Source: Loigolactobacillus coryniformis subsp. coryniformis KCTC 3167 = DSM 20001
Lineage (GTDB): Bacteria; Bacillota; Bacilli; Lactobacillales; Lactobacillaceae
Assembly: GCF_002706425.1 (NCBI RefSeq)
Contig: NZ_CP017713.1
Coordinates: forward strand, 310,001-374,000
Direction: 5' to 3'
Length of the DNA: 64,000 nucleotides
The translations under genes were made by a program, and so were the position numbers. The notes beneath the pieces are model-generated. The model had not been told where the DNA came from, ran no database searches, and saw only the letters and a list, made by a program, of their open reading frames with translations. Positions 2,912 to 53,310 of this stretch are shown in pieces (the stretch's first letter is position 1; every line of letters begins with the position of its first letter).

Positions 2912-3106
2912 ATGAAGACAAAATGGAAGATTGCATTTGCGGCCTGCGTTTGTTTAGTCGTCTTGCTCGGAATTTTGGCAACCTTGCAGTTGCCCTGGGC
3001 GTTGACGCTAGTAAGCGTGGTTGCAACTTTACTGCTAGTCAGTATTGTTGTCGCGATCATCTCTTACGTTTTCGGCGTAATCGAGTCGAGTATTCGACGA
3101 AACTAG
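2912..3106 (+). CDS. Small membrane protein of unknown function
   Basis: 64 residues: a short basic start (MKTKWK) and two hydrophobic helices, roughly residues 6-27 and 30-56, ending in SSIRRN. The ATG at 2912 follows AAAGGTGG by 8 bases; TTG at 2909 directly before it is also possible. It stands alone between the hydrolase gene and a terminator. I recognise no family. It could be a DUF3955-like or stress-associated small membrane protein, but nothing decides this. Confidence 0.6.
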   Translation: MKTKWKIAFAACVCLVVLLGILATLQLPWALTLVSVVATLLLVSIVVAIISYVFGVIESSIRRN

Positions 3107-28444: not shown

Positions 28445-28548
28445 CTCCTTATCTACTCAGCTACTTGCTGCTGGAATTAGCACCTTGCTTTGTGGTAGGT
28501 TGCTGTGCTGTCATCGGGCCAGATCCCTCAAGCACTCTGGATAAAGAC
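28445..28548 (-). promoter_or_regulatory. SAM-I (S-box) riboswitch aptamer
   Basis: Read on the minus strand: P1 arm CTTTATC, then the conserved GAGGGATCTGGCCCGATGA block, GCACAGCAACC, GGTGCTAATTCCAGCAG, and the closing P1 arm GATAAGG. These are the SAM-I consensus elements in order, including the kink-turn and pseudoknot regions. A terminator follows at 28394-28427. Binding of S-adenosylmethionine is expected to switch the downstream 49-residue gene off. Confidence 0.92.
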
Positions 28549-48803: not shown

Positions 48804-49637
48804 ATGAAAAAGGATGGGCACAGCCATACAGAATTTTGTCCCCATGGTAGTGGCGACGACGTTGAATTGATGATCCAAAAGGCTATTAAATTTGGCTTTA
48901 GCGAATACAGTATTACCGAGCACGCGCCGTTACCACCGGATTTTAAGCACGATTACGCTGGTGCGATGACTGGCTTGACTGAAGCCTCAATGGCGTTGAA
49001 TGATCTACCAGCTTATTTCAAGAAATGCCAGCAATTACAAGCAAAATATCGCGGGCAAATTAAAATCAATATTGGTTTTGAACTAGATTTTTTGCCCACT
49101 CAAGTCGCTTGGACCCGTGATTTTTGGGCTGAGTATGGCCCACAGACGCAAGATAACGTACTTTCAATTCATTTTATGCAAGGGGCAGCTGCTAAGTTTT
49201 GGTGTGTTGATGATACTACCGCTGACTTCAAAAAAGGCTTACTCGATCCACAAAATGGTGATGCTCAGGCCTTATACGGCCAATATTTACAGGCGTTGCT
49301 GGTTGCCGTACAGACTGATTTAGGCCCCCACGCACCAACACGATTGGGACACATGACTTTGATTAAAAAATTCCAAGACTATTTTAATTTACCAACTAAA
49401 TTTAATGCGACCAATTTGGCCTTAGTTGATCAATTATTTGCTAGTTTAAAACAGCGCCATTTTAGTTTGGATCTAAATACTGCTGGGTTATATAAGCCTT
49501 ACTGTAATGAGACTTATCCTTATTCTGACTTGATTCTACGGGCACAAGCGGCAGGTATTCCGTTAATTTATGGTTCAGATGCTCATAGTATTGCCGAAGT
49601 TGGTCATGCCTATCATCAGATCGAAAAATTTGTATAA
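48804..49637 (+). CDS. hisJ: Histidinol-phosphatase, PHP type
   Basis: 277 residues of the PHP metallophosphatase fold. Metal ligands are seen in DGHSHTEFCPHG, ITEHAPLPPDF, FELDFLP, SIHFM and IYGSDAHSIAEVGHAY. Hydrolyses histidinol phosphate, the step otherwise missing from the hisZGDBHAFIEC operon downstream. It lies before the his T-box leader and therefore has its own control. The ribosome site is weak (AAAGTAGTG). Confidence 0.9.
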   Translation: MKKDGHSHTEFCPHGSGDDVELMIQKAIKFGFSEYSITEHAPLPPDFKHDYAGAMTGLTEASMALNDLPAYFKKCQQLQAKYRGQIKINIGFELDFLPTQVAWTRDFWAEYGPQTQDNVLSIHFMQGAAAKFWCVDDTTADFKKGLLDPQNGDAQALYGQYLQALLVAVQTDLGPHAPTRLGHMTLIKKFQDYFNLPTKFNATNLALVDQLFASLKQRHFSLDLNTAGLYKPYCNETYPYSDLILRAQAAGIPLIYGSDAHSIAEVGHAYHQIEKFV

Positions 49638-49643
49638 AGCCGC

Positions 49644-49672
49644 TTGACTTTTTGAAAACAACTGCTATTATG
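49644..49672 (+). promoter_or_regulatory. Promoter of the his T-box transcript
   Basis: TTGACT, 16-base spacer, TATTAT, directly behind hisJ. Confidence 0.65.
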
Positions 49673-49674
49673 AG

Positions 49675-49998
49675 AACAACATTAAAAATAAAATGAAGTT
49701 TTGATTAGAAAAAGTAGCAAGCAAATGTTTCGAGAGAGTATCCAGACGGCTGTGAGGATATAGCATAACTTGTGAACACACATCTATGAACTTTGGCGCT
49801 GAATCACAGTAAGCACCAACGCAGGGTCTGCGTTAAAAACTGTTACAAGTTAATTTGATTCTAGTGTGATTATTCAGCGCACGTTTTAAAAATGACACTT
49901 AATTTGCAACTTGAGGTCTGGCCTGTAAGGTCCAGATAAACTTGAGGTGGCACCACGATCATTCGTCCTCGTAAGCGATAAGCTTGCGGGGATTTTTT
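49675..49998 (+). promoter_or_regulatory. T-box leader of the histidine operon
   Basis: T-box sequence TTGAGGTGGCACCACG lies at 49942-49957. The terminator stem CCTCGTAAGC/GCTTGCGGGG with TTTTTT follows (49967-49998). CAC and CAT triplets at 49777-49783 in the stem I region suit a histidine specifier. The T-run is followed after one base by the 5' end of a group II intron, and hisZ starts 2.2 kb further on. The leader should antiterminate when tRNA-His is uncharged. Confidence 0.87.
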
Positions 49999-49999
49999 G

Positions 50000-51906
50000 G
50001 TGCGCCCGGCATGGGCGTCAACTAGGTGGTGAAAGTCCACTGCGGGCCGTAGTAGTCGGAACCGCTAGCCAAAGGCAAGGCCTTTATCGTGAGGTGAAGA
50101 CTGAAGGAAGCCTGATGAGCAAAGTACTGCACCGATGAACAAGAAGCAGCTATAAGGCCGGAAGTAACTGGATAAGGTGGCCAAACACACTGAAGTCCGA
50201 TACTACCCGAAGTTACGACAGTAAAGCTGACGGTGACATGGTACGAAAGTTGACGTTCTTACCCGGGGAGACCTGTACACACAATCCTGATTTTCTTAGG
50301 GAATACCCAAATGACAAGGAAATATGAGTTCAAAGCAAGTCAGAAATGGCTGGTTAAGTGTACAGGAGTCAGCCGAGGTCATAGTAGTGGGTAACCATGA
50401 AGGACCAAACAATAATAACTCATATTGCGACTGGAAGTGAAGACGATGCGAAAATCGCAGAAAACAGAACAAGCTGACCGCCAGCGGATGATAGGTCTGG
50501 AAGACCAAAGACAAACTGGGGCGCGTAGTATCGCCTCCGGTGAAGGAGAAAAGATGAGTGGCACTCAGTTTCAAGCATTAGTTTTGGCCCGCAACAACCT
50601 GAATTTGGCTTATCAACGTGTGGTCAGGAACAAAGGGGCGGCCGGAGTTGACGGTATGACCGTTGATGAATTGAAACCGTACCTGAAAGTACATCGCGAA
50701 GAATTACTCGCAGAATTGGCCAATGGGACTTATAAACCGGCACCAGTCAAGCAAGTCTCAATTCCAAAGCCCAACGGTGGAACGCGTAAGCTTGGCATTC
50801 CGACCGTGATCGACCGGCTAGTCCAGCAGGCCGTGGCCCAGGTCCTTTCGCCGATATATGAACAGATCTTCGCCAACAATAGTTTTGGTTTTCGACCCCA
50901 ACGCAGTGCACATGACGCAGTTCAACAGGTCGTTCAGCTAGATAATGCGGGTTATCACTATGTGGTTGATCTGGATTTGAAGGCCTACTTCGATACGGTT
51001 AATCATGACATGCTTATGAAGTTTCTCAAGCAGCGAATTAGTGACCGCTGGATACTACGGCTCATTCGCCGTTTTCTGACTAGTGGCACCATGAATGGGC
51101 AATTGTTTGAACGCAGTGAGAAAGGCACACCGCAAGGCGGGCCGATCTCGCCACTGTTAGCGAATATTTATCTCAACGAATTCGACCAAGAACTAGCTAG
51201 GCGCGGTCATGAATTTGTCCGTTACGCCGATGACTGCAATATCTTTGTTAAAAGTCCACGCGCGGGCCAACGAGTCCTCGCTAGTGTGACTCGTTTTCTC
51301 GAGCATGAGTTAAAACTCACGCTCAATCAGGAAAAGACACAAGTGGTCGCCACCAACAGAATGAAGTTCTTAGGTTTTACGTTGGGCCACACTAAAGGCA
51401 GGGCTTTTCCCTATCCGGTGTGGTCAGCGAAGCAGCGAGTTAAACAAGCATTGAGGCGGCTGACTAAGCGTAATCGTGGTGTATCCGAAGACCAAATAAT
51501 GGCAGAGATTCGTCAAAAGATGCGCGGTTGGTTGCAGTATTACAGCTTGGGTAGAATGAAGCGGTTCATCACGGAATTAGATGCGTGGCTGCGGTCACGT
51601 ATTCGCCAGTACATTTGGAAACAATGGAAGAAAGCCAAAACTAGAGAGAACAACTTGAGCGGATTAGGATTTACGAAAGATGAAGCTAAGCTATCCGCTA
51701 ACACGCGTAAAGGGTACTGGCGGACAGCGCATAGTAAAACGCTGTGCCGTACCCTAACTAACAAAGAGCTGGAACGTCGTGGACTCATTAACTTGAGTCA
51801 GACGCTCCAGCAAATTCAGAGTGCTTAAATTATTGAACCGCCGTATACGGAACCGTACGTACGGTGGTGTGAGAGGACGGTAACTTACAATTACCTCCTA
51901 CTCGAT
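50000..51906 (+). mobile_element. Group II intron, bacterial class C, inserted behind the his T-box terminator
   Basis: The 5' end GTGCGCCCGGCATGGGCG is the group II start. Domain V is recognisable near 51835-51905 (CCGTATACGGAACCGTACGTACGG, split arms CCGTATACGG and CCGTACGTACGG, then GTGAGAGGACGG), ending CCTACTCGAT. The internal ORF is a class C reverse transcriptase. Class C introns insert just behind intrinsic terminator hairpins, which is exactly the site here. Length about 1.9 kb, typical and apparently intact. The 3' boundary is certain to a few bases only. Confidence 0.9.
50446..51828 (+). CDS. ltrA: Group II intron reverse transcriptase/maturase
   Basis: 460 residues. MRKSQKTEQADRQR is a frequent start of these proteins. 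RT motifs: NKGAAGVDGMTVDE, IPKPNGGTRKLGIPTVIDR, FGFRPQRSAHDA, DLDLKAYFDTVNH, GTPQGGPISPLLANIYL and the catalytic YADD at about 260-263; then the maturase domain (MRGWLQYYSLG) and GYWRTAHSKTLCRTLTN at the C terminus. No H-N-H endonuclease, as in class C. Promotes splicing and target-primed reverse transcription. ATG 50446 chosen; ATG 50554 has a better ribosome site (GAAGGAG) but would drop the conserved start. Confidence 0.93.
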   Translation: MRKSQKTEQADRQRMIGLEDQRQTGARSIASGEGEKMSGTQFQALVLARNNLNLAYQRVVRNKGAAGVDGMTVDELKPYLKVHREELLAELANGTYKPAPVKQVSIPKPNGGTRKLGIPTVIDRLVQQAVAQVLSPIYEQIFANNSFGFRPQRSAHDAVQQVVQLDNAGYHYVVDLDLKAYFDTVNHDMLMKFLKQRISDRWILRLIRRFLTSGTMNGQLFERSEKGTPQGGPISPLLANIYLNEFDQELARRGHEFVRYADDCNIFVKSPRAGQRVLASVTRFLEHELKLTLNQEKTQVVATNRMKFLGFTLGHTKGRAFPYPVWSAKQRVKQALRRLTKRNRGVSEDQIMAEIRQKMRGWLQYYSLGRMKRFITELDAWLRSRIRQYIWKQWKKAKTRENNLSGLGFTKDEAKLSANTRKGYWRTAHSKTLCRTLTNKELERRGLINLSQTLQQIQSA

Positions 51907-51914
51907 TATTCAGA

Positions 51915-52026
51915 GTGTTTGAAAAAGCGATTAGACACTGGAACGTAGCCTAGCTTAGCGATAAGATACGCGCAGCGAATCGTTAGCTAAGCGTAGCTAG
52001 GTGGAAGTGGCTGCTTTTTCAAACAC
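51915..52026. repeat. Large inverted repeat of the GTGTTTGAAAAAGC family
   Basis: Arms GTGTTTGAAAAAGC (51915-51928) and GCTTTTTCAAACAC (52013-52026) are perfect complements. Inside them CCTAGCTTAGCGAT and ATCGTTAGCTAAGCGTAGCTAGG form further imperfect stems, giving one long branched hairpin. It lies between the intron and hisZ, so it is in the his leader transcript. Related pieces occur at 10705-10765 and 42985-43000. Confidence 0.75.
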
Positions 52027-52111
52027 GTTTCCGCAAACCCAGTTAGCTAAGCGCAATAATCTGCTTTTCCAAACACGTTTCCACAAACCCAGTTAGCCAA
52101 GCACAATAATT
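52012..52111. repeat. Two tandem 50-base direct repeats before hisZ
   Basis: Two units with period exactly 50 (for example AAACACGTTTCC at 52021 and 52071, CAAACCCAGTTAG at 52034 and 52084), differing at about five positions. The first unit includes the right arm of the inverted repeat. A partial third copy (CCGTAAACACATTTTC) may begin at 52115. Confidence 0.75.
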
Positions 52112-52167
52112 ATTCCGTAAACACATTTTCACCAATCATCAACTCAAAAAAGAAAGGGGCACTGACC

Positions 52168-53310
52168 ATGTTGAATCGTAATTTACCAGTCGGTACGCGC
52201 GATGAATTTGGTGTCGTCGCACAGGCTAAAGAAAAAATTACCGGCCAGATTCAAACTTACTTTCGCAGCCGTGGTTTTCAAAAATTGACCACACCGTTAC
52301 TTGAATATAAGGCGGTGTTCAGCTCAATGGAGCAACAAACTTATCAGCCCTACCAGTTACTAGATGAGCACGGGGAGACCTTGGTTTTACGGCCTGATCT
52401 AACTTTACCGGTGGCACGGGTGATGAGCACCACCGGTATCAAGACGCCAGTCAAATGGTATTACAGTGGCGAGGTTTTCCGAGTCAAAAAGCGCTTATCC
52501 GGCAGCTATAACCAGCAAACACAGGCCGGAATTGAAATTATTGGTTATCGTTCGTTAAAAGCCGAATGGGAGTGTTTGACTGCTGCAATCGAACTTTGTC
52601 AGCAATTGGCGGTCAGTGATCTCCACGTTGAGTTAGGCCACGCCCGTTTTGTTAAGGCGGTGTTACAGGCATTACCGTTGAATACCCTGCAACAAGCAAC
52701 TTTGCAACGCACATTATTCAGTAAAAACGTCACTGCCTATCAAGCTGTGATCGCGCCACTAGCGGATGATCCCTTTTATCCCTTTTTACAAGTTTGGCCG
52801 TGGTTGTTTGGTGATTTTGAGCAGGTACTCGCTAAATTAGAGCTGTTACCGGCAATGCCTGAGTTACAGTCGATCATGCAAGAATTATCCGCTACTCAAG
52901 CCTTTTTACAGCAACAATTTCCCCAGCAAAAAATTGAGCTAGATCTATCGATCGAATCGCCGCAGGCTTATTACACAGGGATGATTTTTCACGGTTATAG
53001 CGATTCGACGGCCGAATTTTTGTTCAGCGGTGGGCGTTATGATCAGTTGTTATCCAGCTTTCAAAATACGCTGCAGCCTGCTGTTGGTTTAGCTTTTGAA
53101 GTTGATCAATTAGCGCAATACACGGCGGTCACCACGACAACGCCCACGACTTTGATCTACTTTGATGAAGCCAGTTGGGGTGCGGCACAACAAATTTTGC
53201 AGCAACAACCAAATAGTAGTTTGTGTTTGGCGGAAACTAAGCACGAAGCGGAGCGAATCGCTCGGCAAACCAACAGTAGACTGATCGACGTCACGGAGGT
53301 GCAACCATGA
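52168..53310 (+). CDS. hisZ: ATP phosphoribosyltransferase regulatory subunit
   Basis: 380 residues, histidyl-tRNA synthetase-like without aminoacylation. RNLPVGTRDEFG, LVLRPDLTLPVARV, WYYSGEVFRVKK, QAGIEIIGY and FSGGRYDQLL correspond to HisRS motifs. Forms a hetero-octamer with the short HisG and gives histidine feedback. ATG behind AGAAAGGGG. First gene after the T-box, intron and repeats; overlaps hisG by 4 bases. Confidence 0.94.
   Translation: MLNRNLPVGTRDEFGVVAQAKEKITGQIQTYFRSRGFQKLTTPLLEYKAVFSSMEQQTYQPYQLLDEHGETLVLRPDLTLPVARVMSTTGIKTPVKWYYSGEVFRVKKRLSGSYNQQTQAGIEIIGYRSLKAEWECLTAAIELCQQLAVSDLHVELGHARFVKAVLQALPLNTLQQATLQRTLFSKNVTAYQAVIAPLADDPFYPFLQVWPWLFGDFEQVLAKLELLPAMPELQSIMQELSATQAFLQQQFPQQKIELDLSIESPQAYYTGMIFHGYSDSTAEFLFSGGRYDQLLSSFQNTLQPAVGLAFEVDQLAQYTAVTTTTPTTLIYFDEASWGAAQQILQQQPNSSLCLAETKHEAERIARQTNSRLIDVTEVQP

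Follow-up and report, generated by a model that had tools for sequence, protein, structure and literature searches.

The 64,000-nucleotide window analysed here (positions 310,001 to 374,000 of contig NZ_CP017713.1, Loigolactobacillus coryniformis subsp. coryniformis) contains a full-length group IIC intron, which starts two bases after the T-run of the terminator of a T-box leader and separates this leader from hisZ, the first gene of the his operon. The explanation that we consider very probable as a whole is that the intron retrotransposed into the conditional his terminator following the rule of its class, that it shares one T-box-gated transcription unit with the operon, that its splicing is probably dispensable, and that the insertion is recent and not domesticated. 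The segment 49640-52170 holds, in this order, a candidate promoter, the T-box leader, the terminator, the intron, a palindromic repeat and the start of hisZ. The elements on which the argument is built are these:

49692..49973, + strand: T-box leader with the His specifier CAC by alignment (Rfam RF00230, 100.0 bits, full model 1-219)
49944..49971, extent approximate, + strand: T-box antiterminator, GAGG, bulge TGGCACC, ACGA / TCGT, CCTC (sequence and a 32-nt fold)
49965..49998, + strand: conditional intrinsic terminator, at the same time the 5′ exon hairpin of the intron; 12-pair stem, 5-nt loop and T-run (sequence and fold)
49996..49999, + strand: intron-binding site 1 (IBS1) TTTG, with which the 5′ exon ends; it can pair with CAAA at 50182-50185
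50000..51906, + strand: full-length group IIC intron, 1907 nt, GTGCGCCC ... CTCGAT (Rfam pieces, 15 genome copies, empty sites)
50182..50185, + strand: exon-binding site 1 (EBS1) CAAA in a loop of domain I (position and complementarity)
50554 (ATG)..51828, + strand: intron-encoded reverse transcriptase/maturase, 424 amino acids (Pfam RVT_1 1.5e-46, GIIM 8.2e-17)
51836..51906, + strand: intron domain V/VI (RF00029, 49.3 bits, above the gathering score)
52168..53310, + strand: hisZ (Pfam tRNA-synt_His 2.4e-59; sequence)

The score of the T-box leader exceeds the RF00230 gathering score of 93. The 12 pairs of the terminator lie within 49965-49993, the T-run extends from 49993 to 49998, and a single G at 49999 precedes the intron. 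The folding energy of the terminator was -19.7 kcal/mol; the antiterminator, folded as an isolated 32-nt segment, gave -6.8 kcal/mol and the expected shape. The sequence GTCCTC (49965-49970), which forms the 5′ strand of the terminator, is also used by the antiterminator, so the two folds are mutually exclusive. A first-pass annotation, made by a model from the sequence alone, had proposed a group IIC intron directly behind the his T-box terminator, a terminator stem reaching to 49998, an intron beginning at 50000, a conditional hairpin whose alternative fold is the antiterminator, and hisZ about 260 bases further on. The Rfam matches, the shared strand and the coordinates agree with all of this; the stem is longer than described by two pairs, and the hisZ start at 52168 is 261 nt past the intron end.

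The RNA core of the intron was recognised by two further Rfam models, RF02001 (50083-50257, 128.3 bits) and RF01998 (50332-50405, 58 bits), both above their gathering scores. The open reading frame (ORF) of the intron has the YADD motif, and its sole stop codon is the terminal one. Apart from RVT_1 and GIIM, Pfam (E up to 0.001) detected no domain in it, an endonuclease domain included. The EBS1-IBS1 complementarity supports the predicted 5′ boundary and ordinary group IIC targeting. Passages of earlier surveys (PMC8919778, PMC4424553) report class C introns immediately downstream of intrinsic terminators. Judged by its sequence, the element is a member of group IIC: it has the RNA core, a reverse transcriptase/maturase without endonuclease domain, a position beside a hairpin with a short EBS1-IBS1 pairing, and the conserved first base of the 3′ exon. 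The window contains one occurrence of the combined pattern of T-box end and intron start; 100 shuffled sequences contained none.

The boundaries 50000 and 51906 rest on 15 genomic copies with differing flanks and on empty sites in other species. Seven congeners were searched with the leader sequence. In six of them no intron lies between the leader and the nearby hisZ, and the aligned sequence passes from the terminator T-run into a short spacer. The seventh (G006) was uninformative, offering only a 58-nt T-box match with no hisZ match at that locus. The six empty sites show that 50000-51906 is an insertion, which settles a comparison with the his leaders of relatives that the first-pass annotation had called for; a conserved arrangement at this site was rejected on the same ground. 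An error of assembly or annotation, with no true insertion at 50000-51906, could be suspected because 15 near-identical copies can confuse assembly, but the genome is a single closed contig, each of the 15 copies has unique flanks on both sides, and all junctions read TTTTTTG / T. We regard such an artefact as extremely improbable.

The 2.95 Mb genome contains these 15 full-length copies and a diverged sixteenth match to RF02001. All 15 are preceded by TTTTTTG, followed by T, and have a hairpin just upstream (40-nt folds between -10.2 and -22.3 kcal/mol). Seven copies, the T-box copy among them, are identical; of the others, six deviate at 3-5 positions and two have one additional base. The seven identical sequences imply mobility, and since the T-box copy is identical to six others it must be recent, leaving little time for selection. 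Lactiplantibacillus pentosus has a plasmid-borne copy of 99.7% identity, which likewise follows a hairpin and TTTTTTTG. The orientation of the copies changes with position: the + strand carries all nine that lie below 1.54 Mb, the - strand all six above 1.84 Mb. Such a distribution would be expected if replication direction governed insertion or survival, the origin being assumed to lie at the contig start. One copy (L003) lies behind tRNA genes.

These data suggest that an active group IIC intron of this genome retrotransposed into the his T-box terminator by its usual rule. Recognition would have involved the terminator hairpin in the DNA and the T-run ending in TTTG, paired by the CAAA of EBS1. 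The position, the pairing and the empty sites are direct observations; that the hairpin was recognised as DNA we infer. Two more elements bear on how the inserted intron would be transcribed:

49644..49671, + strand: candidate sigma-70 promoter of the T-box leader, TTGACT-16-TATTAT (consensus scan, 10/12)
51915..52026, + strand: long palindromic repeat with perfect 14-nt arms, 51915-51928 / 52013-52026 (sequence)

The candidate promoter is the sole + strand sigma-70-like site in 49600-52200, and its TTGAC and TATNAT are kept in six aligned congeners. With charged tRNA-His the terminator would form, and most transcripts would stop before the intron. Under histidine starvation uncharged tRNA-His would stabilise the antiterminator, and the polymerase would read through the intron, the repeat and hisZ onward. 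By the standard T-box mechanism it is reasonable to expect that transcription reaches the intron and hisZ only by read-through and that they share a histidine-gated transcript. hisZ has its own ribosome-binding-site-like AAAGGGG upstream; this sequence lies within the 3′ exon and is common to the near congeners. Because the insertion splits no ORF and the 3′ exon retains the putative ribosome-binding site, splicing is probably dispensable for hisZ, which would be translated from spliced and unspliced RNA alike.

Splicing, where it occurs, would follow the re-formation of the more stable terminator hairpin in the read-through RNA. The energies of the two folds (-19.7 and -6.8 kcal/mol) indicate that the exon hairpin could be restored behind the polymerase or upon release of the tRNA. 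Passages of PMC3542257 describe cleavage of T-box leaders, that of thrS among them, in Bacillus subtilis, where RNases Y and J can cut such leaders. By analogy, cleavage of the his leader could help the exon hairpin to re-form. In B. subtilis the T-box leader is reportedly cut just upstream of the terminator.

The first-pass annotation went further and proposed that tRNA-His charging, intron transcription, hairpin recognition and splicing are coupled. In such an arrangement the antiterminator would remove the exon hairpin, transcripts made under starvation would splice badly, and the resulting change in hisZ would be exploited by the cell or by the intron. The 5′ strand shared by terminator and antiterminator is compatible with this, and so are passages of PMC7161350, according to which a group IIC intron defines its 5′ splice site by a stem-loop. 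The terminator, however, exceeds the isolated antiterminator in stability by about 13 kcal/mol, RNases Y and J, which can cut T-box leaders in B. subtilis (PMC3542257), might free the hairpin, hisZ appears readable without splicing, and the insertion is recent and absent from six of the seven congeners. We therefore consider a coupled switch highly unlikely. Of the proposed coupling, the gating of intron transcription by tRNA-His stands as a reasonable expectation, whereas a regulatory coupling of splicing was unsupported in view of the far more stable terminator, the separate ribosome-binding site of hisZ, the absence of an interrupted ORF and the recent origin of the copy. On the fold model an influence of the hairpin on splicing is physically possible; its consequence for hisZ is probably small. 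Nothing at the locus shows domestication, and the arrangement looks like an opportunistic, recent insertion rather than a domesticated switch.

The arrangement recurs in this and other genomes. Another of the 15 copies (L015:1368-3447; G000:C1:978230-983144) lies between the terminator of a thiamine pyrophosphate (TPP) riboswitch (73.5 bits) and thiM, the hydroxyethylthiazole kinase gene. thiM starts 32 nt past the intron and is followed by a thiD-like gene. Switches recognised by Rfam (T-box, TPP) are thus found upstream of two of the 15 copies. A strict pattern combining the T-box end with the group IIC start was used to scan a collection with one genome for each of 84,980 species. It returned nine stretches. 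Five were real by Rfam and alignment: Alicyclobacillus montanus, Ligilactobacillus salitolerans (L034), Alloiococcus otitis (L036), Lederbergia galactosidilytica and an Alkaliphilus bin. The other four (L033, L035, L037, L038) were rejected as chance matches, since Rfam recognised neither a T-box nor a group II piece in them at E up to 0.001. Within the family the pattern was present in two of 397 genomes, this one and G192, whose match is the L. salitolerans sequence.

The T-boxes of L036, L039 and L040 score above the gathering threshold; those of L032 (74.3 bits) and L034 (82.7 bits) do not reach 93, though their E-values are 3e-14 or better. The L040 intron match is partial owing to a contig end. 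The L034 intron has no Rfam call and the contig ends inside it; its identification rests on the alignment of its first ~90 nt with the others. The terminator was the more stable fold in all five junctions, in L032 by only 0.9 kcal/mol when a shortened stretch was folded; the fold of the L034 antiterminator stretch was not canonical in shape. The EBS1-IBS1 pairs read AAAA/TTTT in L032 and ATAA/TTAT in L036. The T-box half of the pattern matched 12 of the 30 T-box loci examined in this genome and the intron half 18 of 29 intron loci. Because of this insensitivity the five junctions are a lower bound.

The regulated genes were read only for A. otitis, the sequence in the other four ending inside the intron or soon after it. 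In A. otitis the intron separates the T-box from valS: on L036 its domain V/VI extends to 2989, and the valS start is at 3020. One full-length valS was found in this genome, eight other matches being 25-37% identical. This layout before the only valS found argues that genes behind such introns stay expressed. A further A. otitis intron copy (L122; G010:C1:133324-133497) is found 20 kb from the T-box/valS copy, a short distance behind a gene (130428-132710, probably ileS) that the valS query matched in part.

Several observations weigh against the explanation proposed here. With respect to targeting and recurrence, EBS1 and IBS1 of L039 pair at three of four positions only, and the intron ORF of A. 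otitis reads as N in the available sequence. With respect to the histidine response, which we predict from the his genes downstream and from CAC at the specifier position as read from the Rfam alignment, the T-box bulge is UGGC, the last base of which would pair with G73, and the tRNA-His of this genome has C73. This mismatch weakens the assignment a little. The congeners have C, U or A as the UGGN base of the his T-box (49946-49957); varying in this way, the base seems unconstrained here. The discriminator contact is perhaps unused with tRNA-His, whose C73 presumably pairs with G-1.

Transcription into hisZ has its own difficulties. Inside the long hairpin of the palindromic repeat, between the intron and hisZ, there is a terminator-like site (51993-52014), which may reduce read-through. 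No + strand sigma-70-like site was found between 49672 and 52200 by a consensus scan that can miss promoters; the scan is weak in general, as it gave six sites on both strands, near the level of shuffled sequences (mean 3.6, sd 1.9). The same result bears, as weak evidence, on the counter-case named in the first-pass annotation, a promoter in 51907-52167, where the scan found none on the + strand. It is conceivable that the insertion harms the operon: the intron and the repeat would cut read-through strongly, or hisZ would rely on a promoter in the insert, and T-box control would be lost or weakened. Besides the terminator-like site, the distance of 2.2 kb between T-box and hisZ, as compared with the short spacer of the congeners, would fit such damage. 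Yet the downstream operon ORFs are open, the stretch 49672-52200 has no + strand promoter-like site, and a similar layout is tolerated before valS and thiM. Harm to the operon is accordingly judged unlikely, and a T-box-gated unit that includes the intron remains the preferred reading. The repeat itself has about twenty partial matches elsewhere in the genome, mostly at 70-80% identity, and a piece of it is present in the corresponding hisZ leader of congener G007; possibly it is a small non-autonomous mobile or regulatory repeat of the genus.

It is doubtful, but worth stating, that copies behind conditional terminators serve as expressed source copies, and that mobility is gated by the lack of nutrients (histidine, valine, thiamine pyrophosphate). 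If so, most copies would be nearly silent behind constitutive terminators, starvation would raise intron RNA, maturase, splicing and new insertions, and the re-formation of the exon hairpin only after tRNA release or leader cleavage would build in a delay. The T-box copy is one of the seven identical copies and the TPP copy is not, which is neutral for this idea.

RF02001 was present in 45 of 121 genomes of the class to which the window belongs. At 29 loci, one per genome, Rfam searches at gathering scores found no T-box or riboswitch just upstream in the direction of the intron. Among the same loci one intron (L169) lies behind 6S RNA, and another (L164) has a cyclic di-GMP-I (c-di-GMP-I) riboswitch on the other strand. 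For a motif search these 29 loci were supplemented with 60 from five genomes; of the 89, five without a 5′ end and four duplicates were dropped. A T-box motif, with up to one mismatch allowed, was found at none of the 80 distinct sites, and a hairpin at or below -7 kcal/mol was present at 78. Enrichment of conditional terminators as targets was rejected for lack of evidence (0/29 by Rfam, 0/80 by motif); insertions behind conditional terminators are rare elsewhere.

The intron shares with group IIC introns behind terminators the RNA pieces, a reverse transcriptase/maturase without detected endonuclease domain, the short EBS1-IBS1 pairing and the place behind a hairpin and T-run. It differs in that the terminator is a conditional one in an operon leader, and the intron stands between the switch and the regulated gene, not behind a gene end. 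Likewise, leader architecture, antiterminator/terminator pair and downstream his operon are those of tRNA-His T-box leaders of his genes, whereas the intron and the palindromic repeat between terminator and first gene set this locus apart from them. Passages of PMC9481103 describe a group IIC ribozyme behind an S-adenosylmethionine (SAM)-I aptamer whose terminator is uninterrupted; the authors call it a selfish insertion. Both cases combine a conditional leader having an uninterrupted terminator stem with a group IIC intron behind it; the present one has a T-box, which senses tRNA and is ON under starvation, and comes with empty sites, full boundaries, and TPP and valS examples. As far as those passages go, the kind is already known, and the T-box and TPP members are additions. 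A full-text literature search, covering listings and passages of selected papers, found no paper describing a group IIC intron behind a T-box terminator.

Going by passages of PMC3984707 and PMC9481103, true coupling has its closest example in the c-di-GMP-controlled group I intron of Clostridioides difficile, where likewise a ligand-sensing leader (a c-di-GMP-II aptamer) is followed by a self-splicing intron in the 5′ untranslated region. There the aptamer changes the splice site and the ribosome-binding site, whereas here the intron is a mobile group II intron, and nothing shows that the T-box controls splice-site choice. The loci described here are natural constructs for asking whether a group IIC intron in the cell needs its 5′ exon hairpin, switchable by tRNA or TPP, in order to splice. 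They also illustrate that a mobile element which seeks terminators can settle between a metabolic switch and the genes under its control and leave the operon without visible damage.

The gene upstream of the candidate promoter is the following:

48804..49637, + strand: PHP-domain phosphatase ORF, 277 amino acids, which we take to be hisJ/hisK-like (Pfam PHP, PF02811, 8.2e-18)

A PHP-domain ORF adjoins the leader in congeners too. The open ORFs that follow hisZ were named hisG, D, B, H, A, F, I, E and C by reading their translations. Elsewhere in the window a SAM riboswitch was found on the - strand (28446-28547, 75.4 bits). The whole genome gave 44 T-box matches at E up to 0.01, a high number, 16 of them above the gathering score.

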